A DNA stretch of 64,000 nucleotides from Desulfomonile tiedjei DSM 6799. GTDB taxonomy: Bacteria > Desulfobacterota > Desulfomonilia > Desulfomonilales > Desulfomonilaceae. Position 1 is the first letter of the stretch, and every line of letters starts with the position of its first letter. Below, piece after piece: positions 12,318-61,047 of this stretch. A program made the translations under genes and the position numbers. The stretch covers positions 6,142,001 to 6,206,000 of the forward strand of contig NC_018025.1 in NCBI RefSeq assembly GCF_000266945.1, in the 5' to 3' direction. Below the pieces are notes generated by a model, which searched no databases, had not been told where the DNA came from, and saw nothing but the letters and a program-made list of their open reading frames with translations.

Positions 12318-13328
12318 TCAATGTGCAGACTGTGGTTGATAGACAATACCGGTGATTCTGTCTTTCGTAAAATCAAAGAGGGTTTCCACGTCCGATCCCT
12401 GTACGATCGTGATTTTGGGTTCCTCAATTACTTTTCCGATTACTGCCGCGTTTATTTTCCTTTCATGAAAGAGCTCAATCACTTGATCGGAGTGACGGGG
12501 AGGAACGGACAAGATAAAGCCGAAACTTTGAAAAGAAAACAACCAGTCCGAGAAAGCGATTTCCAAGGGAGTCGGAATGGAATCGAGAATAATCTCAGCG
12601 CCTTTCCCCGAGTTTTCCATCATGATCGAGGCGGTACCCACAATACCTGCGTTGCTGACATCTTTTGCCGCATTTGCCCAATTCCTTTCCGAGATCATGG
12701 GCAGGCACTCCAGCCGATAGATCAGCTCCTGCGGACTCTTTCCGGAATTAGCGTCCCAACTGGTTACCGAATGACACCCGGCCTTGCCGCTAAGATCGAC
12801 TGCGAGAATCAGGTTATCTCCTGTTTGAGCTGTATAGCCATGCAGGACTTTGTGCGCCCAACCCAGAATAGCGACAGCTAAAGCGGGAGCTTCGGGAGCG
12901 GCATCCGGGTGCAGATGTCCGCCCAGCATAGGAACCTGCAATTTTTCGCAGCCCTTTCGGATGCCCTGGACTATCTTACGACGATGATCTTCATCTCCGC
13001 TGGCGAGTACGTTGACCATACCCAAAGGACGGCCGCCCATAGAATATATGTCGTTTACCGTAACCATTACCGAGGCTTTACCTGCCGCGTACGGCTCATT
13101 CATCAATAGCCTGGGCATGATTCCGTCAGCAGCAAACAGCAAGAAACCGTCTTTCCATGGAATTACCGCGGCATCATCGCCGAAATTAGGGGGTGCGAGC
13201 CCGGGTTGTCCTTTTAAGACCAATTCCGTAAAGACATCTTCAATGGGTTGCTTGCGAAGAAGTCCACTGTAATTGCGTATTCTATCAGCAAGGAGGGCGA
13301 TCGGTGTTTCTCTTGTCATGTGTTCCAT
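12318..13328 (-). CDS. AIR synthase-related (PurM-like) protein of the Nit1C/sll0787 type
   Basis: 336 residues with the PurM/ThiL/SelD fold. The N-terminal metal- and ATP-binding segment NFGDDAAVI and the later FAADGIM and VNDIYSMGGRPLGMVN motifs are typical of AIR-synthase-related proteins that bind ATP and Mg. It starts 20 nt after the radical SAM-GNAT gene and so is co-transcribed with it. In Nit1C clusters (nitrilase, radical SAM, GNAT, AIR-synthase-like, flavoprotein) this is the AIR-synthase-like member. In Pseudomonas the cluster is linked to cyanide/nitrile assimilation. The biochemical role of this subunit is unknown. An ATG three codons in (13319) is an alternative start. Confidence 0.75.
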   Translation of the reverse strand: MEHMTRETPIALLADRIRNYSGLLRKQPIEDVFTELVLKGQPGLAPPNFGDDAAVIPWKDGFLLFAADGIMPRLLMNEPYAAGKASVMVTVNDIYSMGGRPLGMVNVLASGDEDHRRKIVQGIRKGCEKLQVPMLGGHLHPDAAPEAPALAVAILGWAHKVLHGYTAQTGDNLILAVDLSGKAGCHSVTSWDANSGKSPQELIYRLECLPMISERNWANAAKDVSNAGIVGTASIMMENSGKGAEIILDSIPTPLEIAFSDWLFSFQSFGFILSVPPRHSDQVIELFHERKINAAVIGKVIEEPKITIVQGSDVETLFDFTKDRITGIVYQPQSAH

Positions 13329-13348: not shown

Positions 13349-14869
13349 TCAGACTCTGTCGAGATCCGCTTCCATGAGTCTATGGGGCTTACCATGGTAT
13401 ATCTCGACGGGTCCTATGGCTTTCCAGCCAAGCAGTGAGAAATAACGCACGTTCTGTTCTTGTATATGAGCGGTGAATCGTGTGCAACCTCGGTTCTTCA
13501 CGTAACGCATCGCTTCCTGGATCAGCAATGTTCCAACATGATTGTCCCTGTGTTTCTTCCGGACTGCAAGCCTTCCCCCAATCCACTGATTGGGGCCGCC
13601 TTTTTCGGGAAAGACTCGTACGGTCCCAAGAATCCGATCGTCATGTTCTACGATGATATGAGTGCTCGATGCATCATTCTCATCGAGGTCCGAGGTTTCA
13701 AAGAGACCCTGTTCCTTCACAAAAACATCGTTGCGAATTTGCAGGGCTACGGTAAGTTCGTCGTCGGTTACAATCGGCCGGGAGGTGAACTCTTTCCTCG
13801 TCTCCAGTTCATAAGCCTGCAAGGCAGAACATGCTCCGCATCGTACACAACCCGCCAAAGACCTCGCAGCAGAAAGACCTTTTTTTCTTAAAATTCCAGC
13901 AATGGAGGTGTACAAGCGCTTCATGGTTTCGTGGTTCGGCGTCTCGCAATCTTGCATCAATGAACCGGGTATTGGACGGAATGGCACGACGAATGGATAG
14001 ACTCCTCTATCTGCAAGAAACTCGCTTCCCTCAATTACAGAGTCTTCCTGTTCACCCAGACCCACAAGCAAAAAACTACTCACCTGGTTGAACCCGAAAA
14101 CGTCCACTGCCCAGTTCCAGGCTTTTTCATACCGTTCAAGACCGATAGCGGATTTCACGGGAGCTAACCTGGCGAGTACTCCCATGTCAAAACTTTCTAT
14201 ATGAATGCCTGCAGTATCCACTCCGGCTCTTTTCAGCTCATGGAGTCTGCTTGCATCGTCAGGTGGAAGAAACTGAGCATGGATAGGCAGATCGCAAACT
14301 TTCTTGATGGCCGTTGCGCATTTTCCGAGATAAGTAATTTCTTCTCCTGACGGGAGAAATGCTCCAGTAGTCAGAACGACGTGAGATGCCGAATCCAGCT
14401 CCATTGCTTTGTGGATTACTTCAGCCAATTGGGCGGGAGTTTTTATTCTTGTGGTCTGGGCGGCGGTCAGGGACAACTCTATGCCGCAGAATTGACATCT
14501 CTTGTCAGAATTCCAGTATATGCAAGTCTGACGGACCGTCGAAGCCACGCAATTCTTTCCGTGAAATAGGGCAATGCTGGAATAGGGTACCTGATCCTGC
14601 GTCTCATAGTCATAGAATCTGGGTCTTCGCTTGATCGTTGCGGGCAGGATCAACTCTCCGTTTTTCACAAGCCAGGATTCTCCGTCAAGTAAGCGTAAGG
14701 CGTACGGAGATCTTGATACAAAGTTGCCGCTGCAAGGCACATGAGCCGGAATGCCGTCGAGTATGATCGTACCGCCTTCCGCCGGTCCTGCTCCGACCTT
14801 TCTGTTTTGCGACTCTATGGCGACTTGAACCCCGAGGCTCTGGATTTCGGTTATTGTATGGGCAAGCAT
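13349..14869 (-). CDS. Fused radical SAM - GNAT protein of the Nit1C cluster type
   Basis: 506 residues with two modules. Residues about 95-370 are a radical SAM domain; its cluster cysteines C116, C125 and C128 have CX8CX2C spacing rather than CX3CX2C, and this module ends with CVRCGACSAL. Residues about 378-506 form a GNAT acetyltransferase fold with GGRLAVRKKHRDNHVG, the acetyl-CoA loop. In actinobacterial and cyanobacterial Nit1C loci these are, from memory, two separate genes (MSMEG_0568- and MSMEG_0567-like); here they are one polypeptide. It precedes the AIR-synthase-like gene in the same transcript. The reaction is unknown; the family is predicted to modify a small molecule that is handled by the nitrilase pathway. 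Confidence 0.75.
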   Translation of the reverse strand: MLAHTITEIQSLGVQVAIESQNRKVGAGPAEGGTIILDGIPAHVPCSGNFVSRSPYALRLLDGESWLVKNGELILPATIKRRPRFYDYETQDQVPYSSIALFHGKNCVASTVRQTCIYWNSDKRCQFCGIELSLTAAQTTRIKTPAQLAEVIHKAMELDSASHVVLTTGAFLPSGEEITYLGKCATAIKKVCDLPIHAQFLPPDDASRLHELKRAGVDTAGIHIESFDMGVLARLAPVKSAIGLERYEKAWNWAVDVFGFNQVSSFLLVGLGEQEDSVIEGSEFLADRGVYPFVVPFRPIPGSLMQDCETPNHETMKRLYTSIAGILRKKGLSAARSLAGCVRCGACSALQAYELETRKEFTSRPIVTDDELTVALQIRNDVFVKEQGLFETSDLDENDASSTHIIVEHDDRILGTVRVFPEKGGPNQWIGGRLAVRKKHRDNHVGTLLIQEAMRYVKNRGCTRFTAHIQEQNVRYFSLLGWKAIGPVEIYHGKPHRLMEADLDRV

Positions 14870-17745: not shown

Positions 17746-17801
17746 AGTATTGTTCCTCGATTCCGCGACTTTTATTGATGGGTCGTGACAGTGTGGCGCC
17801 G

Positions 17802-18527
17802 TCAAGTGGAGGCGCACTGCGTGACCTCATAGTAACGGTTTGTTACAAGCCCTGCAAACAACACCGCCCCAGGGCAGGGCACAACGAGTTTTTTCCGGAA
17901 TGAACCTCCGATGATATTGTACCATTCCATACAGGCAGAGCAGACATGGGAGGTCTTACAAATCGAATAGGGGACGCGCTCGTCTCCCTCAAGAACAAAA
18001 TAAACGGGTTCTATGAAGTTTGCATGATTTGCGGAGTGTGACACAAATAGGTCTTCAAATTTCACACCCCTCAATCCCATCACCTTTAACCAGCGCTCTT
18101 TCTCTTCAATTTCTTGTGATTCGATGTTGTTCCACTCGTCCGGCCGAGCGTTTTGGTAACTAAGCCTTTCAATCAGTCGAGCCTTTTCCCCAGTCAATGG
18201 AAGCGACGAGGGTTTGAACGCGCTCCGGCGTATGATAATTTCAGCGCTCATTGCAGAGTCATTGAGATCATGGGAGCTAACCAGCAGAATTTTGCCGTAG
18301 TAACTCGATGAACGGTACCATGACAACTGCCTTTTGCACAGCTCGAAACGCCCCCAGGTTTCCGGTAAGACATAACCAGCTTGTACGGATTTTGATAATG
18401 GAATACAAACCGCTTTCTTGGTTTCACGTAAGGAAATCCCGCGAGCCTCGATCTTTGTCTTCACATCACTAAAGAGGGGCTCTTCAATCCAGTAGACAAA
18501 TTTCCGATAATCATAGCCGCTGTTCAT
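17802..18527 (-). CDS. Conserved-looking hypothetical protein with a C-terminal cysteine cluster
   Basis: 241 residues, soluble, with no signal or membrane segment. I do not recognise the family. The C-terminal quarter holds a Cys/His-rich stretch (ICKTSHVCSAC, then CPGA and a final TQC), which could bind metal or an iron-sulfur cluster. It lies 40 nt after the HdrD-like gene and 56 nt before the importer binding-protein gene, in the same direction, so it links the redox operon and the importer. No clear ribosome site precedes the ATG. It is probably real because it fills the space between two operon halves without overlap. Confidence 0.6.
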   Translation of the reverse strand: MNSGYDYRKFVYWIEEPLFSDVKTKIEARGISLRETKKAVCIPLSKSVQAGYVLPETWGRFELCKRQLSWYRSSSYYGKILLVSSHDLNDSAMSAEIIIRRSAFKPSSLPLTGEKARLIERLSYQNARPDEWNNIESQEIEEKERWLKVMGLRGVKFEDLFVSHSANHANFIEPVYFVLEGDERVPYSICKTSHVCSACMEWYNIIGGSFRKKLVVPCPGAVLFAGLVTNRYYEVTQCAST

Positions 18528-18567: not shown

Positions 18568-19902
18568 TCATTCCTCTTTCTTCAAAGCGCTTCTCACCAG
18601 GTGCGTCATATCTCTCATCACCAGGGGTGAACTCAAAGCGCCGATACCGACTTGAAGACCGGCATAGCAAAAAGGACACGCGCTGACCAATTCACTGGCC
18701 CCGGTCTGTTCGGCTTCCCTGATCCTTGCCTGCGCCATTTTGTTCTGCAGGTCGGGAAAACCGGCCTTGACTCCTCCGCCGGCACCACAGCATCTGGAAT
18801 ACGGACCATGTCGGGGCATTTCGACCAGTTCCAGGCCTGGAATGGCCTGGATGACCTCTCTGGGTTCATCAAAGATTCCCGAGGCTCTCCCGAGATGACA
18901 TGGGTCATGGTAGGTTATTACTTTTTCAACGGGAACCTCGAATTTGAGTTTCTTCTGCTCGATCAGCCGACGGAGAAATTCAACGGTATGCAGTACTTCA
19001 AATTTTAGCTTACCCACTTTCGGATAATCCTCTTTTATGGTCTTGAAACATCCCGAGCACGAAGTAACAAGAGTATCAATGGAGAGGCCGTTCAGAAGTC
19101 TAATGTTGTCCGACGCGATTCGCTCGTACTCCGGATCTCCCATCCGGAGAAGAACACTCCCGCAACATTTCTCGTTCTCTCCCAGGCAGCCGTAGTCGAT
19201 GCCCAGAATGTCCAGGACGTTGACGGTATCGATTGCGATCTGACGGATGTTTAAATCGTAAACTGCCGTACAGCCGAAAAACAGAAGAATCTTGCTCTTG
19301 GTTTTCTTTATATCGGGTGGCAGTTCGGGTATGAGATTATCCTTCTTTGCGCGGCGAGCCCATTTGACCCGCCCCTGACGAGGTTGCTGCCATGGGTTAT
19401 CGTACGATTTCACACTCTTGGCCAGTGTTTTTTGTGGCTCAAGAGGGCCGTACCCCGCGGAAACCATCAGTTCACGAATGTTCTCCCAAAGATTGACCGT
19501 ATCAATATTGGCGGGGCACACTACCTGGCACTGCCCGCACGTCGAGCATTCGTACAGATTAAGTGCGAAACGACGTACATCATCCTCGTTAATTTCATCG
19601 AGCCTGAATACTTTTCTTATGAGCCACTTGGCCGGTTCAGGCAGTTTCCCGTTCTTGAGTATGGCATTCAGAAGACTTTGCTGGTTTCTTACAATATGGA
19701 GAAAATCGAGAATCTTTTGACGGGGAAGAATATCTTCTCGGCCGTCCTGGTCAAATACCGGACACCATCTCAAGCACTCTCCGCAGCGGGTGCAAGCGTC
19801 CAATTGGACCAGACGCCTCATCTCCAGTCGGTCCAAGGGGATAACGCGAGCCGGTACAATTGAGTTTTCAGGGGTTATTTCTGTGGAATCCGTCTCTACC
19901 AT
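18568..19902 (-). CDS. HdrD-like CCG-domain iron-sulfur oxidoreductase subunit
   Basis: 444 residues. The N-terminal part has two [4Fe-4S] motifs, CTRCGECLRWCPVFD and CSTCGQCQVVCPANID. Two CCG domains follow: CCGSVLLRMG with SCSGCFKT, and CHLGRASG with CCGAGGG and SACPFC. This is the HdrD/GlcF/DsrK architecture that binds noncubane [4Fe-4S] clusters at a thiol/disulfide or quinone-linked site. It follows the cytochrome c-b fusion by 23 nt and matches an HdrDE-type pair, with the fusion's b domain as HdrE. Electrons would pass between periplasmic haems and a cytoplasmic partner. It is cytoplasmic, facing the membrane subunit. Confidence 0.88.
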   Translation of the reverse strand: MVETDSTEITPENSIVPARVIPLDRLEMRRLVQLDACTRCGECLRWCPVFDQDGREDILPRQKILDFLHIVRNQQSLLNAILKNGKLPEPAKWLIRKVFRLDEINEDDVRRFALNLYECSTCGQCQVVCPANIDTVNLWENIRELMVSAGYGPLEPQKTLAKSVKSYDNPWQQPRQGRVKWARRAKKDNLIPELPPDIKKTKSKILLFFGCTAVYDLNIRQIAIDTVNVLDILGIDYGCLGENEKCCGSVLLRMGDPEYERIASDNIRLLNGLSIDTLVTSCSGCFKTIKEDYPKVGKLKFEVLHTVEFLRRLIEQKKLKFEVPVEKVITYHDPCHLGRASGIFDEPREVIQAIPGLELVEMPRHGPYSRCCGAGGGVKAGFPDLQNKMAQARIREAEQTGASELVSACPFCYAGLQVGIGALSSPLVMRDMTHLVRSALKKEE

Positions 19903-19925
19903 GTTACATTCTCTTTCTTTTATAC

Positions 19926-21368
19926 CTACGCTTTTTTGTAATTAAGCAGAAGGCTCAAGGGAGTGGTGAAAATGTGTTTCAGCTTGCCGAAAGGCAGGTA
20001 CGCGATGAACAGAGCCCATAGCAGAGCGTGAATGTACCACATGTATCCGAAGATCGACTCCCAGCCTACGTTCATAATTGAAAACAGCCTTGACATCACA
20101 TAACCGGCGAAGGCTGACAACGTGATCTGTGGCGGGATTTGTCCCATAACGAATCTCATCCCTTCCAGCATGAAGCCTGACAATGCAACAAGTCCGATGA
20201 TCACAAGCGCAGCGGTATCCTGTTCCTGTGTAGACACATATTCAGGCTTCGTAATGAAGCGGCGAACCATTGCCCAGACAACACCCACAAGGATGAAGAC
20301 TCCCGTCAGATCGTTGAACGTGGCGACGAAGGAACTGTCCTTGTTGATGAGCGTCAGTGTCCATTCACCCTCAGGAGAAAACTTTTGGAGGTAGAGAGTG
20401 AGGATGCTGAGTGCAAAACGGGCGAAAAACGAATAGAAGATGAGCGAGTGTATGAGCCAGCGGCTTACGCCGTTTGCCAGTATCCTGCGTTGCAAGAGTA
20501 TGTCGAAGAACACGGTTTTGAGTATTGAGAAAATTTCTCTGGAGAATACCTTGCTCCAAACAACCTCTGAGCCCAGTTGAATCTTTTTGTGCACAGAAGT
20601 CGTTTCGCCCTGAACACCAGCCCTGAACCAAAAGATAACAGTCGCGACAATGCCCATTAACGCTACGATGATAGCCAGTAAAAAGACCGGGTTACCGATA
20701 CTCATCGGAGAGTAATGGCAGGCAATGCAGACAAAACTCTTTGAGGGTAAAACCATGGTCGGAGCGCCCACTTGATTATTCGGTACATGGCACTTTGTAC
20801 AGAAATCCTCCCGGGTCACATCGGCTACTTTGTGCTCTGCCAGGCTTATCGGAACCTGCTTGGCGTTTGTGTGTGAAAGCTTCACCTCATTATTTGCCAC
20901 GTCGAGCTTAACGAATGGTGAATCCGTATGACACGCTTCACATCGTACACGCTGGTGTTCGGCATGGGTCCCCGGAGATCCGCTAATTTGGGAATGGCAA
21001 CCGGAACACTGGACACCGGATAAGGAACGATGCGGCGATTGGGCCACACTCGTGTGGCATTGGATGCATGCCACGAATCTATGTGGAGACTTGAGAAAAT
21101 ACTCAGGTTTCACCTGGAATGAAACTTTGGAGGCGCGGAAGTCTCCGTGAGAACCGGGGTCCTGGTGGCAATTGTAGCAGAATCGCTGGGACGATAAGAT
21201 GCCCTCGTTAGCATTCAGATTTCGTTGACGATGGCAGTCCAAGCACTCGGATGGCTGCTGGCCGGGTGGCTGCTGTTGAGCTACAGAAGACCCGACCATC
21301 CAAAAAGCCATGAACCAAAACGCTAGAGCGCATACTGCTACTGCTGAAGTTTGCATCCTTGGTTTCAT
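19926..21368 (-). CDS. Heptahaem cytochrome c fused to an HdrE/NarI-type cytochrome b
   Basis: 480 residues. Signal/anchor at 8-30. The periplasmic part has seven CXXCH motifs, starting at residues 42, 64, 101, 121, 143, 190 and 214. A membrane segment at about 227-250 leads to a C-terminal membrane domain (about 300-480) with four or five helices and His residues typical of HdrE/DsrM/NarI cytochromes b (WLIHSLIFYS, WYIHALLW). Fusing a multihaem c module to a membrane b module is reminiscent of Geobacter CbcL, although the b part here looks HdrE-like. It would move electrons between the periplasmic haem chain and the HdrD-like protein encoded next. Confidence 0.85.
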   Translation of the reverse strand: MKPRMQTSAVAVCALAFWFMAFWMVGSSVAQQQPPGQQPSECLDCHRQRNLNANEGILSSQRFCYNCHQDPGSHGDFRASKVSFQVKPEYFLKSPHRFVACIQCHTSVAQSPHRSLSGVQCSGCHSQISGSPGTHAEHQRVRCEACHTDSPFVKLDVANNEVKLSHTNAKQVPISLAEHKVADVTREDFCTKCHVPNNQVGAPTMVLPSKSFVCIACHYSPMSIGNPVFLLAIIVALMGIVATVIFWFRAGVQGETTSVHKKIQLGSEVVWSKVFSREIFSILKTVFFDILLQRRILANGVSRWLIHSLIFYSFFARFALSILTLYLQKFSPEGEWTLTLINKDSSFVATFNDLTGVFILVGVVWAMVRRFITKPEYVSTQEQDTAALVIIGLVALSGFMLEGMRFVMGQIPPQITLSAFAGYVMSRLFSIMNVGWESIFGYMWYIHALLWALFIAYLPFGKLKHIFTTPLSLLLNYKKA

Positions 21369-21393
21369 AAGACTCTTGACTCGTTTTCTTCTT

Positions 21394-22128
21394 TCAAATC
21401 GTTTGTTGGTCGCTGATAGCGGAACCCTGCTGAGGAGCGTTCAACGATGCCCACTCCCCGGGATGGGCTCTCATCATGGTTTCTTTGGTTACTTTTCCTG
21501 TAAAAATAACCCAGTCACCCGGATACACTTCCGGCCGTAAATGACGGACCGATGTATGAATAAAGAATTTGTAGAGCACTGCCAGAATCGCTTCATCAAA
21601 ATGAAGGACTTGGGCTATGTTGACGAAATAGCCTGGAAAGAAACGGGAGAAGAACTCAGGGAACCATAAGAAAACACCTGTGAGTGCCATACTCTGCATT
21701 CCCAGGAAAAGCGTCCAGTAATCGAATTTTTCCCACCATGTGAAACGTTCAAATGGAGGAGGGGTTTGGCTTTGACCTAACAAATACCCCATATGATCGC
21801 GGAAGAATCTGAGATCCTTGAGACGGAAACAGATGGAATCAGGGCCGAAGAGTTTTCCACGCAAGGCAAATTTGAAGTACATTATCCAAAGGACTTCTGC
21901 GACTACGCACAAATAGAGAACCACTGCACAGAAACGGTGCACATATCGCGCGCTGTCGATTCCTCCAAGAAACCATACGAATGTCCGAGCTGCACCCACA
22001 GGGCTGAATGCCAGGGAAAAGCCGGTCAGAGCCACCCCTACGAACGCGAACATTACGACAATATGCACTGCCCTGTGAAGGACGTTAAAGCGCCAGTAAG
22101 CTTCCGGTTCGACAGTTTGATCACGCAT
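21394..22128 (-). CDS. Membrane cytochrome b (FdnI/HydC/cytochrome b561-like)
   Basis: 244 residues with four or five membrane segments. Conserved histidines in HRAVHIVVM, VHRFCAVV, FIHTSVRHLRPE and near HFDEA fit a dihaem cytochrome b of the formate-dehydrogenase-gamma type. It begins just after the hexahaem gene ends and precedes the heptahaem fusion by 25 nt. It is probably a quinone-reactive membrane subunit that passes electrons to or from the hexahaem cytochrome. Confidence 0.82.
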   Translation of the reverse strand: MRDQTVEPEAYWRFNVLHRAVHIVVMFAFVGVALTGFSLAFSPVGAARTFVWFLGGIDSARYVHRFCAVVLYLCVVAEVLWIMYFKFALRGKLFGPDSICFRLKDLRFFRDHMGYLLGQSQTPPPFERFTWWEKFDYWTLFLGMQSMALTGVFLWFPEFFSRFFPGYFVNIAQVLHFDEAILAVLYKFFIHTSVRHLRPEVYPGDWVIFTGKVTKETMMRAHPGEWASLNAPQQGSAISDQQTI

Positions 22129-22129
22129 G

Positions 22130-23035
22130 TCAGCGCCCTCTCAATTTCCTGTGGAGCTCTCGGAGTATCCATACAAAAGTCTGCAGGGCAAAAAATACCA
22201 GCAGAATGATGGTCATAGTTTGGGCAATCGGTTTGATTGTCCCTACGAAGGCCATACTGGCCTGCTTCTCCGGATTCTTCTTTGAGATATCCTCTTTACC
22301 GGTGTGAATGACGATACCCGCAAATTGTACAGTGGCGTCTTTATGGCATCGCCGGCATGCCTCCAAGGCCTTATTTTTGTCTTTGAGGGACTCGCACGTG
22401 TGGGCTCCATGGCAATCCGTACAGTATGCCGATGCCTTCTTTTCGAGAAAGACCCCCATCCTGCCATGGATGTCTTTGAGGTAGCTGGCCTCTTGAGCTT
22501 TGTGGCACTTGCCGCAGGTTTCTATCATTTGCGTTCCGAGTTCAACTCTGGAGCGCTTGGACTGCACATAGTGAGAAGAATGGCAGTCTCCGCACGTAGG
22601 AGCCAACTTCGCCGGAGGCTGCTCTTGTCCCTCTGACTGTGCCTGCTTCTGCTTTGCCAGCTCTTTGGCGTGCTCTCCTTCAATGAAGCGCTTATAGGCC
22701 TCGGGATGACATGAAGCGCAACGCTGGTAATCGTAAGACCGAACAACAACCTTCTTCATGGCCGTTGGATCTTCACGATTGGGATGGACTTTGCCTTGGG
22801 CCGTCAATTCGATGTGGCATCTCTCGCATGTCAAAGATCCATGGGCTGATTTCAAGAATCGGCTCATATCGACAAACCAAGAGGATGAAGGGGTTGGGTC
22901 AGCGGACCATGCCGGCTGAACAGGTATCGGCAGAACCAGTAGAGCGGTGATTATCAAGCCTCGGTAGGAGTGCAAAAGCTTGGTCCTCTTTCCTATGTTC
23001 AGCCGCCGGAGAGTTAATCGTAATCGGTCCAACAT
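22130..23035 (-). CDS. Membrane-anchored hexahaem cytochrome c
   Basis: 301 residues. An N-terminal hydrophobic signal (about 25-44, ending WSA) and a C-terminal membrane helix (about 268-290) flank a periplasmic domain with six CXXCH motifs, starting at residues 70, 106, 148, 174, 205 and 227, plus extra His residues for axial ligation. AGGAG lies just before the ATG. It is the first cytochrome of the operon and abuts the cytochrome b gene. It belongs to the NapC/NrfH-like or doubled-CXXCH multihaem class; I cannot name a closer relative. Confidence 0.86.
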   Translation of the reverse strand: MLDRLRLTLRRLNIGKRTKLLHSYRGLIITALLVLPIPVQPAWSADPTPSSSWFVDMSRFLKSAHGSLTCERCHIELTAQGKVHPNREDPTAMKKVVVRSYDYQRCASCHPEAYKRFIEGEHAKELAKQKQAQSEGQEQPPAKLAPTCGDCHSSHYVQSKRSRVELGTQMIETCGKCHKAQEASYLKDIHGRMGVFLEKKASAYCTDCHGAHTCESLKDKNKALEACRRCHKDATVQFAGIVIHTGKEDISKKNPEKQASMAFVGTIKPIAQTMTIILLVFFALQTFVWILRELHRKLRGR

Positions 23036-23080: not shown

Positions 23081-24373
23081 CTAAGAATCCAGTTGTGTCC
23101 AGAAGGAGTCAAAATAAATCTGTAGAAAAACCATTGTCAACCTGCGTAAAGAATCGAAAAGATCCCCTGCCAGATCCTGTGTATCCGAATAGTCGTCTAT
23201 CCTCGATTTCATCTGCCTCAAAAGATGTGTCACTCTGGAAGCGGTGGCTACAACCACTTCACATGCTTCGGGCTGAGCGCAAATCCTTCGTGAACGTTCC
23301 AGCGTCTTGATCCGCTTCCATATTGCCTCAAGGAACACTCTGATCTTTTCCGGCTCGTAGATTTTGCAGCCGATGAGCCACTGGACAGGTGCCCCTTCAA
23401 GCCCCACCGCTACAATGCGTGAATTGCTGATCTCACGTTTGATGTCGCGAACCAGTTTTTGTTTTGTCGGACCCTCAAGGATGAACTCTGAGCCGGAATA
23501 ACTCCTGCCTGTTCTTCCTTTTTTCATGTCCCAGAATATGGCCGCGGCGACCATGTGGTTGGCTATCGGAAAGAATGGATGCTCGAAATGGGGGCCGAAG
23601 AGGTAAAGGTGTCCATCTCCCATGGCTGTCCTGGCCGCGGCCACTTTGCCTAACAACGTTTCTTCCGCTAACGATTCGTCCACCAGAAACAGGGTCTTTT
23701 CAGTAAATCCGTCGTAGTAGGCTAAGACTTCGGAATCTCCGGACGTAACCATTGACGGGCCGCCGTACAAAGGGGCCAGGAAAGTGTCGAATCCAATGAA
23801 AGGTTCCTTCCCTGTCATCCGTAGGCGAATATCTTCTCGAACAGGATGGTACACAAAATCGCACCCATAACTGGTAGACGCCTTTCTCCCCATTCGCTTG
23901 GCTTCGGGTCTCGTTTTGGAGAGGTTGGCGATTTTTATGTCGACGAAGTTGAAACGATCGAGATGCTGCTTGGAAGATTTGAGTGGGAGATAGGCGCCTG
24001 CACAGGACCCTATATAAAGCCCTCCTCCTCGAATAAACGCCTCGATCGCGCGACCTCCTTCTTGGCCGAGTTCCTCCGCAATTCGGATGGTGTCTCCGCC
24101 CGACATGGCGAAAACATCCAGATGCTCCAGGACGCCATCTCTCACCATATCCTCAGTCATGAAAACGACTTCATGAAATGACATCCGGTCGAAAAGCTCA
24201 ACGAACCAAAGCCACGAGTGTGAAGTCCCTGTTCCCGCGTAAACTCCGATGCGAGGAATACGCAGTTGCCGCGAGGCGCGAGGCAGCACGCTCGCTTCTT
24301 CCTCTCCATAACGGAGTTGGATCCCGCGCGCCAGTTTCTGGTTGATGGACGCATATGAGTGGTAAAGATTCAT
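23081..24373 (-). CDS. BPL_N-type (glutamine amidotransferase-like) protein
   Basis: 430 residues. The N-terminal half is a class I amidotransferase-like fold of the biotin-protein-ligase N-terminal (BPL_N) kind: IPRIGVYAGTGTSHSW, FAMSGGDT and the nucleophile elbow GGGLYIGSCAGAYLPL with a Cys at the active position. The C-terminal half (about 290-430) is helical and has no recognised domain. It lies 45 nt before the hexahaem cytochrome gene in the same direction, so it is the likely first gene of the redox operon. A biotin-ligase catalytic domain is absent, so its role is not biotinylation by itself. Possible functions are sensing or hydrolysis of a small amide or peptide. Confidence 0.75.
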   Translation of the reverse strand: MNLYHSYASINQKLARGIQLRYGEEEASVLPRASRQLRIPRIGVYAGTGTSHSWLWFVELFDRMSFHEVVFMTEDMVRDGVLEHLDVFAMSGGDTIRIAEELGQEGGRAIEAFIRGGGLYIGSCAGAYLPLKSSKQHLDRFNFVDIKIANLSKTRPEAKRMGRKASTSYGCDFVYHPVREDIRLRMTGKEPFIGFDTFLAPLYGGPSMVTSGDSEVLAYYDGFTEKTLFLVDESLAEETLLGKVAAARTAMGDGHLYLFGPHFEHPFFPIANHMVAAAIFWDMKKGRTGRSYSGSEFILEGPTKQKLVRDIKREISNSRIVAVGLEGAPVQWLIGCKIYEPEKIRVFLEAIWKRIKTLERSRRICAQPEACEVVVATASRVTHLLRQMKSRIDDYSDTQDLAGDLFDSLRRLTMVFLQIYFDSFWTQLDS

Positions 24374-24657: not shown

Positions 24658-25977
24658 TTAAGTGCAAACGTCTGCAATGACCTGGTCCACAGTCTCCTGT
24701 GACAGCTCGAGTCCTGTGCCCTTGTTGATCATCTCAAGAATGATCTCTTCCGAGAGTTCCGGTGACATATTTGCAAAAATAGGGTGAATACCGAAAAGGT
24801 AGGCAACCGCTTGTCTTCTCGTCCACCAGTCGTTGGTCGAGCTTCCACCTGATGGACCGAAATCGCCAAAAATAGGTTGCTCTGGTGCCCACGAGCTGAA
24901 CTTGGCTCCTTCCGGAATCGTAACAGTACCCTGCAATCCAACCAGAGACTGTTCGATAGCCTTGGGGTCCTTCTGGCCTGATTTCCCGACTATCTCGGCG
25001 ACAGCGGCCGGATCCACGCCGCGGCGAGAACAGGCCCTCAGAACATATCCAGCGTCCGCTGCTGAGAATCCCAATTTTTTCAAGGCCAACAGAGCCTCTA
25101 TGTCGGTGATCATGAAGCCTGGTTCGGACTTGTCGGGTTCTGTCAGCATCTTTGGATCTTCATCCAGATATATGAAAGTATTGGTCGGGTAGGGGGTGTT
25201 GTAGCAGGCGCTGTGCCGATGCAAAACAGGAGCGAGCCATTCACGGGCGTCATTTTCTCCCATTGCTATAAGAATGTCTTCAACACCGCGCTTTCCTGCA
25301 AGCGCGCTCCCTTTGATCGACTCATAGATCTCGAAACATTGGTCGACGAAATCTTCAGCATCGGAAATTTCCAGTAAGCCCATACCGCGTAGCGCCACAG
25401 CTTTCAGATTCTTTTTGCCAAAAACTTTGCCGAACCCCCAACAGTCGCCGTTTGCCCAATAGTTGACACAGACTTGCGCCAAGTCGGAGCCTTCTTCCCC
25501 AGCCTGACCGATGACCAGGGTTTGGATGAGATCGTCCCCCATACTTTTTCTCAATAAATCGGTGGTGTTCCAGACATCTTTTCCCCAGAGTTCCGACGCG
25601 TCCTGAACATCTGCAACCCCGTCATGAAGCCACAGGAAGACAGGCTTCTCCGACTTTCCGAGTATGACAACATAATCAAAGCCCGTGTACTTCAACTCCA
25701 TGCCGGCCTTTAATGTAACAGGGGAATGGGTTAGATAACCCGTCCTTGGGCTCTTGGCTGAGATGACGGCCAGAGCCGAAGCCGGGAATAGAGTTCCGGT
25801 AAGTAATCCCGAGCCCAGTATGATAGGATCTCTATCCTTATAGGTTTCGTATAGCGAACTGGTGATGCCGACGCCGCCAATTTTCTGGCTCACAAGATCG
25901 TCATCGAGTTCTTCTTCGGAAGTTTCGCCCGTATTCAAGTCAACAATCAGAATTTTATTCGATGATAGATAGTCCAT
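24658..25977 (-). CDS. Short aldehyde:ferredoxin oxidoreductase (AOR) paralogue lacking cluster cysteines
   Basis: 439 residues from ATG at 25977, whose ribosome site AGGAG overlaps the end of the ferredoxin gene. The N-terminal AOR domain is clear, including GFGKVFGKKNLKAVALRG, the pterin-phosphate-binding segment. However, where AOR proteins carry CXXCXXXC there is HSACYNTPYPT with a single Cys. The C-terminal Cys region also has no Cys (LFGIHPIFAN). At 439 residues it is much shorter than the usual 600-650. It may bind a tungsten or molybdenum pterin but probably not the [4Fe-4S] cluster, or it may be a non-catalytic partner. The neighbouring ferredoxin suggests it still functions in redox chemistry. 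Confidence 0.75.
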   Translation of the reverse strand: MDYLSSNKILIVDLNTGETSEEELDDDLVSQKIGGVGITSSLYETYKDRDPIILGSGLLTGTLFPASALAVISAKSPRTGYLTHSPVTLKAGMELKYTGFDYVVILGKSEKPVFLWLHDGVADVQDASELWGKDVWNTTDLLRKSMGDDLIQTLVIGQAGEEGSDLAQVCVNYWANGDCWGFGKVFGKKNLKAVALRGMGLLEISDAEDFVDQCFEIYESIKGSALAGKRGVEDILIAMGENDAREWLAPVLHRHSACYNTPYPTNTFIYLDEDPKMLTEPDKSEPGFMITDIEALLALKKLGFSAADAGYVLRACSRRGVDPAAVAEIVGKSGQKDPKAIEQSLVGLQGTVTIPEGAKFSSWAPEQPIFGDFGPSGGSSTNDWWTRRQAVAYLFGIHPIFANMSPELSEEIILEMINKGTGLELSQETVDQVIADVCT

Positions 25978-25978
25978 T

Positions 25979-26359
25979 CTACTCTCCTTCATCCTTCAGC
26001 GAGATAGCATTGACCGGACAAATCTTGACGCACATGGGGCCGTATTTCATGTCGCCACAGAGGTCACAGGGCTCGCGCAACAGCATGGGTTTCGCAGAGG
26101 CGTCAGCCTCCTTCTTCGGCCCGGAATCGCTTGCTTCTTCAGCCACACCGATCCTCTTGATCTCAACACCCTCGGGTCGCGCTATCGTCAAGCTCTCTTC
26201 TTCTTTTACGACTACCCCGAAGTAATCTTTCTTTTCTCGAGCCCGATAAACAACTATACACGATGCAAGCAGAGCGAAGGCGTCATCTCTGTGATAGCCG
26301 CACGCCATTTCGCAAGCCATGCACCCAATACATTTGAGAGCGTCCACGTCAATTCTCAT
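25979..26359 (-). CDS. AOR-associated ferredoxin-like protein
   Basis: 126 residues. The N-terminal motif CIGCMACEMACGYH and the C-terminal EPCDLCG.....CVKICPVNAI fit two [4Fe-4S] clusters, as in the small electron-transfer subunits encoded next to AOR-type enzymes. A central insertion of about 60 residues contains an acidic/Ala-rich linker (EEASDSGPKKEADASA). It is cytoplasmic. It ends 1 nt before the AOR-like start, so the two are translationally coupled. AGGAG precedes its ATG. Confidence 0.85.
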   Translation of the reverse strand: MRIDVDALKCIGCMACEMACGYHRDDAFALLASCIVVYRAREKKDYFGVVVKEEESLTIARPEGVEIKRIGVAEEASDSGPKKEADASAKPMLLREPCDLCGDMKYGPMCVKICPVNAISLKDEGE

Positions 26360-27412: not shown

Positions 27413-27609
27413 AATAAACGATCCATGTTGGCAGACTGAAATTCAGTCGCTGACGGTGTGTTTGACTGGATGCCTCGCGCACCAGGTTAGTCGCGTTTCC
27501 TAGGACGAATTGGCCGAACCGACCCAGGGTATATTGGCCACCTGACTGTCGCCGATCCGGAGGATCTGTCGACTCTCATTCACTGTTATTGGCCGAAGTG
27601 GACCGGATC

Positions 27610-28509
27610 ATGTTTAAACCGAACGAAAAGGGTCACAAAGTATCACATTATGTCGTCGAGCAGATCCGAGACGCAATCTTAAAGGGTGAATTCAAGCCCG
27701 GAGATAGGCTGGCGTCCGAAAGGGAACTGATCTCTCAGTTTCAGGTCAGCAAGGCTAGTATGCGCGAAGCTTTGAGAGTATTGGAGGGAATGGGGCTCAT
27801 TGAGACGAGAAAAGGAACGGGAGGGGGCATCTTTGCCGCCGAAGTAAACATGAATACCACCGTTCACAGTCTCACGAATTTCCTCCACTTCAAGAATGTG
27901 TCAGTCGCGGACATCACAGCACTTCGCTATTTTCTTGAGCCACGTCTGGCGCAGATAGCGGTATCCAAGATTACCGAGAACGACATTCGTATATTAGAGA
28001 TCATGACGAATGACGAAGTAAACGCCTACCCCACAAAAGATCAACGAGGCATCGGATTCCATTATTATATTGCCAGGTTCTCAGAAAACCCCCTGCTTAT
28101 TCTCATTATGGATTTCATTGAGAGCCTCCTTGCAGATCTGAAAATCAAGCTTAATCCCAGACCCGATTTCTACGATGAAGTGGGGCATGACCACTTCAAA
28201 ATCATAGAATGTTTCAGACGGAAAGACGTGAATGGTGTCAGAAAAGAGATGGCGTCCCATGTGTTACGTGTGGGAGATTACCTGGCGAAGCGAGCTGGCA
28301 GCGCGCCCTTTGACGCTTCGGAATTTCAGCTTGTGGGCCCGACCGTTCCAACGGTAGATCGTGAAGATCAACTGATTGGATCGAACCATGATCGACCTCT
28401 TCCGTTGGCAGCGCAAAAGACTCTCGAGGATTTGGGGCTTTTTCTCAAGCACGTAGGTAACGGGGATTTGTACCTCATTCAAGTCAAGAGTAACCAGCAA
28501 CCTGAATAG
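27610..28509 (+). CDS. GntR-family transcriptional regulator, FadR/FCD type (first paralogue)
   Basis: 299 residues from ATG at 27610; a TTG at 27589 is possible but lies inside a repeated ATTGGCCGAA motif. The N-terminal winged helix (about 8-75) includes ASERELISQFQVSKASMREALRVLEGMGLIETRKGTGGGIF. The FCD ligand domain (about 95-225) follows with its metal-binding His residues (HYYI, HDHF, SHVL). About 70 extra C-terminal residues have no known fold. FCD regulators usually repress catabolic genes and respond to organic acids. It heads the catabolic island and is paralogous to the regulator at 37773. Confidence 0.9.
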   Translation: MFKPNEKGHKVSHYVVEQIRDAILKGEFKPGDRLASERELISQFQVSKASMREALRVLEGMGLIETRKGTGGGIFAAEVNMNTTVHSLTNFLHFKNVSVADITALRYFLEPRLAQIAVSKITENDIRILEIMTNDEVNAYPTKDQRGIGFHYYIARFSENPLLILIMDFIESLLADLKIKLNPRPDFYDEVGHDHFKIIECFRRKDVNGVRKEMASHVLRVGDYLAKRAGSAPFDASEFQLVGPTVPTVDREDQLIGSNHDRPLPLAAQKTLEDLGLFLKHVGNGDLYLIQVKSNQQPE

Positions 28510-28741
28510 CGGAAACGCTCAGTAAGTGGTCGAGTAGCTTACTTTCGCGAGTTCGATGTAGTGAGTTTGCTTCTTCTCGACCGAAAAACCTCTCGCAAGT
28601 GATTGAAAAGATAACAATCATAGTGTGTCGTCTTGCCTTTTAGGGAAGCCGGGACAGGCATGTCCGGCTATTTCATGGAGAGATATATAAGTCAAGTATG
28701 ACTATACGGTTACAAGTATGGAAGCTTTAAAGGAGAATGAA

Positions 28742-30337
28742 ATGCATCCTATGGAATCAGCGCTTAAGAACGTCAAGTATCGGGTGGACAATGGGCAAAA
28801 CCCTTACAGGTTAAAATACTGTGTCAGTGGTGAGTGGCTGGAATCGACAACCACGAAATATATGGACTGCTACAACCCTTCAACCGGCCAGGTCATTGCT
28901 CGGGCGCCGCAATGCACGGTTGACGAAGTAGAATCCGCCATTGCCGCCGCAAAAGCGGCTTTTCCGGCCTGGGCCAATACTCCGCCGAATAAGCGCGCTC
29001 AAGTACTCTTTCACATGAAAGCACTCCTGGATCAGCACCTGGAAGAGCTTACGTACCTTCTGTGCAAAGAAGAGGGTAAATCCTGGACTGAGTCCATGGG
29101 CGACATCCTGAAGGTAAATGAAGTCGTAGAATATGCCTGCGGCATACCTCACCTCATGAAGGGTGAGTCTGTAATGAATATATCCTCCGGATACGATACG
29201 GTCCTGTATCATCATCCGATGGGAGTGTTTGCGGGCATTCCCCCATGGAATTTTCCCGCAATGATACCTCATGGTTGGATGGCCCCTCTTTGTGTGGCCA
29301 CCGGGAATACGATGGTCCTGAAAGCGGCAAGTTTTGTCCCCCAATCGGCGATGCGCATTCTTGAACTGTGGCATGAGGCCGGACTGCCCAAAGGTGTTAT
29401 CAATATTGTGACTGCCGGGAGAAATGAGGCTGAGATCCTCCTGAGACATCCCGATATAGTGGGAGTGTCTTTTGTAGGTTCTACGAAAGTCGGTCGTCAT
29501 ATCTACGCGACTGCCGCTGCAAACGGAAAACGTGTCCAAGCATTAACCGAGGCAAAGAATCACGCACTTGTTCTGCGTGACTGTAAGCTTGACCGAACCG
29601 CAAACGGCATTATCAATGCGTTCTGCGGCTGTGCTGGGGAACGTTGCATGGCCTTGCCGGTTATCTGCGCAGAAGAGGCGATAGCTGACGAACTGGTCGC
29701 AGAGCTGAAGAATCTCGCGAAACAGAGAAGGATAGGGGCTGCCTACGACAAATCTACGGAATTGGGTCCTGTGGTGAATGCAGGTCATCTAAGGTTTGTC
29801 ACCGACTGGATAGAAAAAGGCGTTCAAGAGGGAGCCGAACTCGCGCTCGACGGAAGAAATCCGAGTGTTCCACCCGAGTGCAAAGAAGGATTCTTCATTG
29901 GACCCACGATTCTCGACCACGTCAAACCGGGTATGACATGCGGCGATCAGGAAATCTTCGGCCCCGTGCTTTGCGTCAAGCGTGTGAAGGATTACGAAGA
30001 AGGTCTGGCGATTATGAATGCCAGCGAATTTGCTAACGGGTCCGTAATCTATACGCAGAACGGATACTATGCGAGGGATTTTGCGTATCGGACCCATGCC
30101 GGGATGGTCGGAATCAACGTCGGCATTCCCGTGCCTGTGGGAATCTTCGGCTTTACCGGACACAAGAACTCGTTTTTCGGCGATCTTCACGTAATGGGAA
30201 AAGACGGCATACGTTTCTACACGGAGATAAAGAACGTAACTTCCACGTGGTTTAAAGAGGGTGCAGTGATTTCTAAAAAGGTCGATACGTGGGATGGCAC
30301 TATCACCTCTTTGCCCTCGGACGATGATAAGAAATAG
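28742..30337 (+). CDS. mmsA: CoA-acylating methylmalonate-semialdehyde dehydrogenase-like enzyme
   Basis: 531 residues from ATG at 28742, preceded by AGGAG; a frame start at 28718 lacks such a site. Aldehyde dehydrogenase superfamily: the NAD region with GVFAGIPPWNFPAMIPHG, FVGSTKVG, and active-site segment GCAGERCMALP with the catalytic Cys. The GERCMA signature is typical of MmsA/IolA enzymes, which oxidise malonate or methylmalonate semialdehyde to acetyl- or propionyl-CoA. An N-terminal addition of about 25 residues is present. It is the first enzyme gene after the GntR regulator. The semialdehyde could come from the hydroxyacid dehydrogenases at 48-50 kb. The exact substrate is unproven. 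Confidence 0.85.
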   Translation: MHPMESALKNVKYRVDNGQNPYRLKYCVSGEWLESTTTKYMDCYNPSTGQVIARAPQCTVDEVESAIAAAKAAFPAWANTPPNKRAQVLFHMKALLDQHLEELTYLLCKEEGKSWTESMGDILKVNEVVEYACGIPHLMKGESVMNISSGYDTVLYHHPMGVFAGIPPWNFPAMIPHGWMAPLCVATGNTMVLKAASFVPQSAMRILELWHEAGLPKGVINIVTAGRNEAEILLRHPDIVGVSFVGSTKVGRHIYATAAANGKRVQALTEAKNHALVLRDCKLDRTANGIINAFCGCAGERCMALPVICAEEAIADELVAELKNLAKQRRIGAAYDKSTELGPVVNAGHLRFVTDWIEKGVQEGAELALDGRNPSVPPECKEGFFIGPTILDHVKPGMTCGDQEIFGPVLCVKRVKDYEEGLAIMNASEFANGSVIYTQNGYYARDFAYRTHAGMVGINVGIPVPVGIFGFTGHKNSFFGDLHVMGKDGIRFYTEIKNVTSTWFKEGAVISKKVDTWDGTITSLPSDDDKK

Positions 30338-30539: not shown

Positions 30540-32015
30540 ATGTCTGAGTTGAGCAGTCCACAGAACGAACAAGTTTTCGCAGCAGCAGATGTCGGAAATG
30601 TCGACTCTGTGCTCAGGGAACTGAGAAAGATAGTCGGCGAATCGAACTGTACCGCGGCGAGACACATTCGTTATGCCTACTCGTACGACCTTAGTTTTGT
30701 AAAACCCAAGCTGCCTGACTATGTGGTCATGGCTGAGACCGTTGAGCAGGTCCAGGAACTTCTCCGGTTTGCCAATAAAGAGAAGATCCCGGTGATTCCG
30801 TACACTGCCGGCACAAATATTGGCGGTCTTACAATTCCCGAACGCGGCGGTATTCTTCTTGATCTAAAAAAGATGAATAAGATTATTGACATAGATCCGG
30901 AAGCACATGTCGCTGTTATCGAACCCGGAGTTTCCCACGCAAAACTGGCGGACGCTTTGTACCAGCACAAATTGAGATTCGGGTGGCCGGTCGGGCCTCC
31001 TTCGGCTTCAGTCCTGGCTTGCGCCGTTTCACACGGTATTGGAGGGTTGAACGCGAGGTATGGATTAAACAGCCAGGAAATTACGAGTATGGAAGTCGTT
31101 TTGCCTACCGGCGAGCTCGTGAGGGTAGGATCGTGCGCCATCAGGCACGACGCCTGGCACAGTTGTCTGCCGCTTCCTCAACTCGACGGCCTCTTTAAGG
31201 GATGGCTGGGATCCTCCGGTGTCGTGACAAAGATCGGCATCAGTGTGCATCCGATTCCCCCTCTTCTGAAAGTCTTTACCGTGTCGTGCGACAATGTTGA
31301 GGACATGTACTCCTACATGTTGAATTTAAGCAACTATGAAATCTGTGACGATCTCACAGCCGTTTCCTGGTGGCTTGCCCAGGTTCCTATCCCTTATCCC
31401 TTCAAACCCAAGCCCGATAGCGCTCCCGAGTGGTTTAGCTTTGCGACTACAACCTCATGGACCGAAAAGGAAAGAGAGGCAAGGTCGGAAATCTGGGAGA
31501 CAGTCTTTGAGGAAGAGCAGAAAAAGAATACTTCCATCAAGCGAACGGTTTATCCGGAAGAGGCATTGAAGGGAAGAACACAACTGCCCAGTCAGGTAGT
31601 GGGTTCTACCAAGAATTACTGCAAGCAGGGTGGAGCTGGAATATCGTGGCCGGGGACCTTTACTCCCGCCAAAGTCTGGGCTCCTGTCTATAATAAGTGG
31701 AAAGAGATCCTCATCGGCCACAACCTTTCACCTTCCGTCCGCATGAGCATGTATCGGGGCGTTCACTATGGAATGCTCAGAGCGATGATTCCTTTTAACA
31801 AACAGAGCGCTGAAGAGACTGAAAACGCAAGACATGCAATTGTTGAGTGCCTCAAGGTCGATTTGGACGCCGGAGGCATCCCTTATAAGCCGCCGATCGA
31901 CTTTGCCAATGAAATCAACCAGCGAGCCAGTCCAGGATATCTGGATCTTTTGAGAAGAGTGAAAAAATTCCTGGATCCCAACGACATCATGAATCCAGGC
32001 AAACTCGGCATATAA
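30540..32015 (+). CDS. FAD-linked oxidase (VAO/GlcD superfamily)
   Basis: 491 residues; GGAGG precedes the ATG. The FAD-binding PCMH domain (about 60-240) shows IPVIPYTAGTNIGGLTIPERGG and GVSHAKLADAL. The C-terminal FAD-linked oxidase domain (about 280-490) ends in LDPNDIMNPGKLGI, the usual family ending. It resembles D-lactate/glycolate dehydrogenase GlcD and 4-cresol/vanillyl-alcohol oxidases. The CCG-type iron-sulfur protein gene follows after 36 nt, as in GlcDF-like pairs, so electrons from a 2-hydroxyacid or alcohol would leave through iron-sulfur clusters rather than oxygen. It is cytoplasmic. Confidence 0.87.
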   Translation: MSELSSPQNEQVFAAADVGNVDSVLRELRKIVGESNCTAARHIRYAYSYDLSFVKPKLPDYVVMAETVEQVQELLRFANKEKIPVIPYTAGTNIGGLTIPERGGILLDLKKMNKIIDIDPEAHVAVIEPGVSHAKLADALYQHKLRFGWPVGPPSASVLACAVSHGIGGLNARYGLNSQEITSMEVVLPTGELVRVGSCAIRHDAWHSCLPLPQLDGLFKGWLGSSGVVTKIGISVHPIPPLLKVFTVSCDNVEDMYSYMLNLSNYEICDDLTAVSWWLAQVPIPYPFKPKPDSAPEWFSFATTTSWTEKEREARSEIWETVFEEEQKKNTSIKRTVYPEEALKGRTQLPSQVVGSTKNYCKQGGAGISWPGTFTPAKVWAPVYNKWKEILIGHNLSPSVRMSMYRGVHYGMLRAMIPFNKQSAEETENARHAIVECLKVDLDAGGIPYKPPIDFANEINQRASPGYLDLLRRVKKFLDPNDIMNPGKLGI

Positions 32016-61039: not shown

Positions 61040-61047
61040 ATTCCACC

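Follow-up and report, generated by a model that had tools for sequence, protein, structure and literature searches.

The question raised by this locus is what a multihaem membrane module does beside an HdrD-like iron-sulfur (Fe-S) protein. In a 64,000-nucleotide stretch of Desulfomonile tiedjei DSM 6799 (contig NC_018025.1, positions 6,142,001 to 6,206,000; the whole stretch is hereafter called the window), four adjacent genes encode a hexahaem c-type cytochrome (c6), a b561/FdnI-type cytochrome b, a heptahaem c domain fused to a NarI/HdrE-type membrane domain (c7b) and the HdrD-like protein itself (Table 1). An earlier note, made from the sequence alone, had described them as an electron chain linking periplasmic electrons and quinone to a cytoplasmic thiol/disulfide-type site, in a combination that it matched to no named complex. 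Our preferred reading, to which we assign a probability of about 0.6, is that the module would be an HdrDE/EtfD-like wire connecting an oxidation in the cytoplasm with haems on the periplasmic side and with menaquinone, and that it would form the membrane part of a larger conserved redox system of the Desulfobacterota.

The composition originally described was borne out, the open reading frames, a motif scan and Pfam all agreeing on four close-packed genes with 13 CXXCH motifs, two b-type modules and an HdrD-like protein. The intergenic gaps measure 23 bases between HdrD and c7b, 25 between c7b and b561 and 1 between b561 and c6. The motif scan placed six CXXCH motifs in c6 (residues 70, 106, 148, 174, 205 and 227) and seven in c7b (residues 42, 64, 101, 121, 143, 190 and 214). 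All seven motifs of c7b were present in 10/10 uncut loci sharing the context of the window (window-type loci, the window included) and in 6/6 loci of a second type described below, and c6 had all six motifs in the 16 loci where those of c7b were complete; in the cut locus L066, four c7b motifs were visible. Hydrophobic peaks of c6 at residues 27-45 and 263-281 suggest an N-terminal signal or anchor and a C-terminal hydrophobic helix, and by hydrophobicity c7b consists of an N-terminal helix, the haem domain and then at least four membrane helices. Its C-terminal half is covered by PF02665 (33.7 bits, cut-off 22.9), and on the separate cytochrome b the NCBIfam formate dehydrogenase gamma model scored 57 bits, below its cut-off of 115.85. 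The membrane domain of c7b has the histidines of the NarI/HdrE type: His307, His447 and His465 are all found in 9/9 fusion rows of the alignment. His447 and His465 align in 15/15 rows, one of which is the genome's own NarI, with two NarI histidines that we take to be haem ligands, and His307 is found in 10/15 rows overall. Five histidines of the cytochrome b (His22, 64, 176, 191 and 196) are invariant in 18/18 rows. PDB sequence searches with c6 and c7b gave no useful match.

The HdrD-like protein likewise has the complement of an HdrD of an HdrDE-type wire, with 18 Fe-S cysteines (8 cubane and 10 CCG) making up two [4Fe-4S] motifs and two complete CCG sites, and its best PDB sequence match was EtfD (9ojn). 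All 18 cysteines were conserved in 29/29 uncut window-type rows, which come from 24 distinct contigs (repeated contigs: L058/L080, L061/L104, L063/L111, L065/L131 and L067/L114) and were obtained from 31 rows by leaving out the cut L091 and L108; row C_L045 is a different open reading frame. The ten CCG cysteines were also kept in 7/7 HdrDs of the sister clusters considered below, and in the same alignment E. coli GlpC is without one CCG ligand and GlcF without two. The idea that two HdrD families have lost an intact second CCG site was considered and rejected, the alignment showing CCGGG there.

To follow the gene order across genomes, the fusion protein was searched in 395 genomes of the phylum (E ≤ 1e-10). 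Matches were found in 187/395, many of them reaching the NarI-type half only, and c7b was matched across most of its length with at least 37% identity in 17/395. Of these 17 genomes, 11 show the window-type context, which is missing from the other 6, here called the second type. A wider scan of an 84,980-species collection, which overlaps the 395-genome set, was made with a 15-row alignment and gave 59 loci, namely 45 window-type, 12 other and 2 without the fusion (L135, L136). The 12 others comprise nine loci of the second type (L121-L128, L130), two too short to class (L096, L103) and one partial match (L134); among the 45, L081/L082, L099/L107 and L113/L133 share a contig or an isolate. All four genes occur in order in 35/45 window-type loci, and in nine of the remaining ten the contig ends no more than 1 kb away on the side where the gene is missing, L097 being a genuine exception. 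Judged from these locus counts, conservation of the gene order is far beyond chance. Among named isolates, Desulfospira joergensenii and Desulfatitalea alkaliphila carry the window-type cluster, and a metagenome-assembled genome (MAG) named Desulfomonile tiedjei has an 84% match to c7b. An Anaerolineales MAG (L081) and a Syntrophobacterales MAG (L082) each carry the genes on a 7,169-base contig, and since the two contigs bear the same contig number and are equally long, the apparent Chloroflexi match of L081 is probably mis-binned. In the second-type loci, of which 4/9 are named Syntrophaceae, the haem trio stands beside another HdrD with b561 and the heptahaem protein fused, and these nine loci gave no match to the AFOR-like, BPL_N or ferredoxin genes that accompany the module in the window. 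In the second-type loci L068-L073, L121-L128 and L130, the b561-heptahaem fusion measures 716 amino acids (aa), and in several of them HdrD is made up of two adjacent genes.

Beyond the module, the ferredoxin, AFOR-like and BPL_N genes are the most constant neighbours of the conduit, each being present in 25/25 window-type loci in which 6 kb or more lies upstream of the fusion; the divergent GntR regulator was found in 24/25 of these. With at least 9 kb upstream, GlcD was present in 20/21, HdrD2 in 18/21 and the aldehyde dehydrogenase in 12/21 window-type loci. On the other side, where at least 8 kb was available downstream, the SsuA-type binding protein occurred in 12/19, the radical SAM gene in 9/19, AIRS in 8/19, cobW in 7/19 and an HcyBio match in 6/19, HcyBio lying on the opposite strand in L132. 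Beyond HdrD the cluster continues either with SsuABC and the radical SAM/GNAT/AIRS genes or with CobW/HcyBio. In nine loci (L083, L089, L095, L099-L101, L105-L107) cobW and then HcyBio follow 3' of HdrD, and the HcyBio of L106 reached 512.9 bits with the 'methanogenesis marker 16' model, above its cut-off of 363.95. An FMN-reductase-like gene, seen in 13 loci (9 distinct contigs), sits between SsuB and the radical SAM gene where the order was inspected and is on the opposite strand in L117. The gene order thus points to the four genes being the membrane segment of a longer conserved Desulfobacterota cluster. The electron chain proposed earlier is supported in that its genes are conserved together; as a description it was incomplete, the genes being part of this longer cluster, with trio and HdrD not fixed to each other.

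Table 1. The four-gene module and the genes of the surrounding cluster (coordinates are positions in the window).
Product	Coordinates	Strand	Basis
AIR-synthase-like protein (sll0787/methanogenesis-marker-2 relatives)	12318..13328	-	286.4 bits to both models, below cut-offs 321.3 and 365
Radical SAM and GNAT fusion (MSMEG_0568/MSMEG_0567)	13349..14869	-	TIGR04043 367.1 and TIGR04045 123.4 bits, both above cut-off
SsuB-type ATPase	15228-16013	-	Named from position and translation, no model scan
SsuC-type permease	16020-16781	-	Named from position and translation, no model scan
SsuA-type binding protein	16804-17817	-	TIGR01728 SsuA_fam 173.2 bits, cut-off 163.5
241-aa protein, often adjoining HdrD	17802..18527	-	No Pfam or NCBIfam match; relatives in other loci
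HdrD-like Fe-S protein, 444 aa	18568..19902	-	PF02754 115.7 bits, two CCG stretches; Fer4_8 dicluster domain
c7b, heptahaem c fused to NarI/HdrE-type membrane domain, 480 aa	19926..21368	-	7 CXXCH; PF02665 (Nitrate_red_gam)
b561/FdnI-type cytochrome b, 244 aa	21394..22128	-	PF01292 51.2 bits, cut-off 30.1
c6, hexahaem c-type cytochrome, 301 aa	22130..23035	-	6 CXXCH; Cytochrome_C7 and Cytochrome_C554 above cut-off
BPL_N (biotin-protein-ligase N-terminal-like) protein	23081..24373	-	PF09825 40.2 bits, cut-off 24.2
Short AFOR-like protein	24658..25992	-	PF02730 (AFOR_N only) 171.6 bits
Ferredoxin, 4Fe-4S dicluster	25979..26359	-	Fer4_7 and other Fer4 matches
Divergent GntR/FCD regulator	27589..28509	+	PF00392, PF07729
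Aldehyde dehydrogenase, CoA-acylating MMSDH-like, optional	28718..30337	+	TIGR01722 535.2 bits, cut-off 448.5
GlcD-like FAD oxidoreductase	30540..32015	+	PF01565 108.7 bits
HdrD2, second HdrD/GlcF-type CCG protein	32052..33380	+	PF02754 98.1 bits

Related clusters carrying another membrane module were found through the AFOR-like protein, which gave a match at E ≤ 1e-30 in 109 of the 395 genomes; regions from 24 chosen genomes were inspected. The sister clusters identified in this way encode ferredoxin, AFOR-like protein, BPL_N and an HdrD 52-56% identical to that of the window. Their slot between BPL_N and HdrD is occupied in L139, L140, L142 and L143 (one family) and in L155 (another) by NarI-type, Rieske, cytochrome b6-type and petD-type proteins, the Rieske proteins bearing the motif CPHLGC...CPCH; the HdrD of L140 has a fused cytochrome c domain, and the sequence of the L143 cluster breaks off within the AFOR gene. 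L152 has NarI-type and molybdopterin proteins in the slot, together with a pentahaem c, an Fe-S protein and NrfD, and in L165, from the same genus, NrfD and the Fe-S protein are followed by the cut. The L152 module stayed below the cut-offs of QrcB, QrcC and QrcD (184.2 of 440, 119.7 of 400 and 43.7 of 570 bits) and of its best models PhsA, TtrB and DsrP. L163 has a NarI-type protein in the slot and is then cut, and L141 has a NarI-type protein with split HdrC/HdrB. CCG proteins accompany the AFOR-like protein and ferredoxin in L148-L150, L154 and L156, joined by GlcD in L148-L150, and the membrane-module queries used gave no match in these loci. The gene set of L148, L149 and L150 comprises GlcD, HdrD2-type, GlcD, ferredoxin, AFOR-like and HdrD2-type.

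The replacement of the haem module by a Rieske/b6 module (five sister clusters) or an NrfD/molybdopterin module (one) is the new observation made here. Because modules of these two kinds take the place of the haem module, the slot is most simply understood as that of a quinone/cytochrome-c module, and the haem module looks like an interchangeable electron exit for cytoplasmic chemistry. In a FastTree phylogeny of HdrD, the window-type proteins formed one group (0.898) within a clade shared with the sister HdrDs (0.991), and this clade was separate from the second-type and lipoyl-linked HdrDs; the tree omitted duplicate contigs, cut rows, split second-type rows, D_L141, GlpC, GlcF and DsrK, and included three second-type rows. 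From the tree and the module exchange together it follows that the c6/b561/c7b trio occurs with two HdrD lines and that one HdrD line occurs with three kinds of membrane module. Sulfate reducers possess many cytochrome clusters without assigned function, and if the preferred reading is right, three quinone-linked modules in one genetic slot would provide a handle on their multihaem/b561 modules. Concrete gene sets exist in D. tiedjei, Desulfospira joergensenii and Desulfatitalea alkaliphila, all of them in cultivation.

In the preferred reading, HdrD and c7b would exchange electrons as in HdrDE/EtfD, through the cytoplasmic Fe-S chain of the former and a b haem in the NarI-type domain of the latter. 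The 7 + 6 c haems on the periplasmic side would then relay them to b561 and menaquinone or, alternatively, to a soluble cytochrome of the periplasm. Flow would be outward, with menaquinone and the sulfate-respiring chain receiving the electrons of a cytoplasmic oxidation, a direction preferred as a matter of judgement because the regulator, transporter and dehydrogenase genes resemble an inducible substrate pathway. Cytoplasmic sources could be the GlcD/HdrD2 flavoprotein, the ferredoxin and, possibly, a pair of thiols undergoing oxidation at HdrD's CCG sites. If this is correct, a redox core of HdrD, ferredoxin and a degenerate AFOR-like subunit would be combined in anaerobes with a multihaem, Rieske/b6 or NrfD respiratory outlet.

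By analogy, the wire would have its closest working counterparts in HdrDE and EtfD, and the c6/b561 pair in Cbc-type c-b modules. HdrDE of methanogens and EtfD of the mycobacterial ETF:menaquinone oxidoreductase resemble the module in coupling a CCG/4Fe-4S protein of the HdrD type to a b domain of the NarI/HdrE type, whereas here the b domain bears seven c haems and works with a hexahaem c and a second, b561-type cytochrome. Geobacter CbcL and CbcBA, compared by description, resemble the c6/b561 pair in combining a multihaem c with a b-type cytochrome, and to our knowledge they have no HdrD partner. CbcBA is presented as an inner-membrane cytochrome c/quinone complex (PMC10553843). The same source proposes for HotSeep-1 a link from cytochromes c to a cytoplasmic CCG site, provided by HdrA and a putative CCG-containing cytochrome c oxidoreductase; in contrast to the window, and again by description, that system has HdrA and carries haem c and CCG on one protein. 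HdrF of Db. autotrophicum concerns HdrD-like proteins with membrane domains beside dehydrogenase genes, and the multihaem c fusion seen here does not figure in the available part of that account (PMC2702500). For the HdrD/c7b step the precedent is EtfD, a CCG protein described as a wire (PMC13083937); the same paper reports that Thr and His replace the Hdr-type CCG coordination; the HdrD of the window has none of these changes. Searches of the open-licence PMC literature returned no title or abstract describing the present gene set.

Several observations weigh against the reading of the module as an HdrDE/EtfD-like wire within a fixed larger system. The predicted structure of c7b has a mean pLDDT of 54.6 and is weak over the haem domain, and although its top PDB matches were EtfD (9ojn) and E. 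coli NarI, none had an E value below 0.001. The equivalent of His307 is absent from 4/5 NarI domains of the sister clusters, which makes the b-haem content and number uncertain, with five invariant histidines in b561 and three in the fusion. The GlcD/HdrD2 set is divergent and without co-transcription with the module, L097 has the haem trio but no HdrD within 2,447 bases, and the nine second-type loci place the trio outside the cluster altogether. L151 and L164, with AFOR-like protein and ferredoxin, showed neither HdrD nor BPL_N matches over the stretch available, contrary to a fixed core. For the thiol/disulfide site in particular, HdrD2 also carries all 18 cysteines, which weakens the argument from their number, and in the same alignment the genome's DsrK, whose family is presumed to act on DsrC, lacks one ligand in its second CCG site and the greater part of its first. 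Finally, neither window-type nor sister clusters were matched by a GcvH query (E ≤ 1e-5).

A thiol/disulfide site at HdrD is nevertheless plausible, because the protein keeps both complete CCG sites. The full cysteine set, compared with the missing ligands of GlpC and GlcF and the replacements in EtfD, favours a thiol-reactive site. This part of the earlier proposal therefore survives as a plausible assignment for which the evidence is not decisive. More distant c-NarI fusions, with 28-33% identity and either 6 or 11 haems, likewise adjoin HdrD-like genes, and in 21/24 of their loci a GcvH-type gene lies near HdrD, with the motif ESGKW, taken as the lipoyl-lysine site, readable in all 21. The GcvH-type protein of L044 was above the cut-off of GcvH models, and E1-beta, E2 and E3 2-oxoacid dehydrogenase matches were found in 8/24 loci. 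One such locus, L038, belongs to the D. tiedjei genome (contig 1, 843000-862999) and, with an 11-haem c-NarI fusion, a GcvH-like gene, HdrD and E1-beta/E2/E3 matches, resembles a membrane oxidoreductase linked to a lipoyl dithiol. Since the GcvH-like gene lies so regularly near HdrD, a likely dithiol carrier would here be paired with an HdrD of comparable architecture, which suggests that HdrDs in c-NarI systems can act on a dithiol.

The best surviving alternative, possible but in our estimate rather unlikely, is that HdrD serves as an Fe-S relay only, as do EtfD, GlpC and GlcF, taking electrons from a flavoprotein or ferredoxin with no thiol substrate. The adjoining GlcD and HdrD2 genes speak for it, as do L148-L150, where AFOR-like protein and ferredoxin are paired with GlcD and CCG proteins and no membrane-module query matched, and the description of EtfD as a wire (PMC13083937) shows that a CCG protein can be seen in this role. 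On the other hand, both CCG sites are complete and free of the EtfD Thr/His replacements in the 29/29 uncut rows, whereas GlpC and GlcF miss CCG ligands, a difference that is not decisive. A more elaborate possibility, which we consider improbable, gives the redox engine a small thiol or lipoyl-like carrier of its own, imported by SsuABC or made by HcyBio or the radical SAM/GNAT/AIRS genes. The two CCG sites of HdrD would oxidise or reduce this carrier, which would be connected to respiration by an exchangeable exit (13-haem c, Rieske/b6 or NrfD module). If true, it would mean a coenzyme-M/coenzyme-B-like economy in sulfate-reducing and syntrophic bacteria.

A Tmc-, Hmc- or DsrMK-like complex that brings periplasmic electrons inward for DsrC trisulfide reduction in sulfate reduction is about as improbable as the carrier reading. 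Many hosts carry sulfate-reducer names, and a CCG protein, a b-type membrane subunit and c haems within one gene cluster are the common theme of DsrMKJOP, TmcABCD and HmcABCDEF, which the module shares. However, there is no NrfD or DsrO-type gene among the four, the context differs, and the scores fall far under the cut-offs: HdrD reached 93.6 of 735 bits with TmcB, 88.7 of 400 with DsrK and 63.5 of 750 with HmcF, and c7b 31 of 300 with QmoC and 20 of 300 with DsrM. The genome's own DsrK lies elsewhere and scores 730.5 bits, the regulator/transporter/dehydrogenase setting looks special-purpose, and the full-type fusion is present in only 17/395 phylum genomes. HdrD was below cut-off in all of the best 25 of 46 NCBIfam models matched, including the best-scoring TfrB (226.1 of 385 bits) and the CoB-CoM HdrB model (46.8 of 345.15), and c7b, cytochrome b and c6 were below the cut-off of every NCBIfam model that they matched. 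Identity with DsrMKJOP, Tmc, Hmc or Qmo was thus rejected, and in the libraries tested the module is, as had been supposed, not a named complex.

Slightly less probable still is that the AFOR-like protein is an active tungsten oxidoreductase served by the wire, much as might be imagined from class II benzoyl-CoA reductase and its BamBC core. Its AFOR_N match and the ferredoxin partner in 25/25 loci would fit, and its PDB matches include AFORs as well as the benzoyl-CoA reductase entry 4z3w. However, the canonical AFORs L159-L161 (602-609 aa) have CxxCxxxC and a fourth cysteine, whereas the window protein retains one of these four Fe-S cysteines and several window-type relatives none, no window-type protein keeping more than one among the matches listed. 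The AFOR-like proteins are also shorter, at 419-535 aa, and within the short family L147 (455 aa), L151 (499 aa) and L155 (524 aa) keep all four cysteines. The predicted structure was too weak for use (mean pLDDT 46.5). From the incomplete Fe-S motif and the shorter length we therefore take the protein to be degenerate, assume no working tungsten enzyme and reject this candidate. Least probable is a conduit for extracellular or direct interspecies electron transfer, which 13 c haems on membrane-anchored periplasmic proteins might evoke but which we rejected, as both c proteins look inner-membrane anchored, no porin or outer-membrane cytochrome is among the identified conserved neighbour families (porins were not searched as such), and the data gathered gave no pointer to such transfer, outer-membrane proteins not having been a search target.

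The radical SAM/GNAT gene is perhaps a separate transcript because a gap of 358 bases separates it from the SsuB-type gene. Its radical SAM and GNAT parts are above cut-off and the AIRS relative is below; the Nit1C cluster is, we assume, defined by a nitrilase together with radical SAM, GNAT and AIRS genes, and a complete Nit1C cluster seems unlikely, with no nitrilase among the window genes scanned, which are part of all window genes. Elsewhere in the window, a third CCG/Fe-S protein is encoded near the left edge (476-1849), a PAS/HAMP histidine kinase at 3837-6242 and a 1161-aa molybdopterin oxidoreductase at 57815-61300. Between 36355 and 43919 lie arginase-like, XdhB-like, molybdopterin hydroxylase and binding-protein genes, a possible purine or urea-type catabolism adjoining the cluster.

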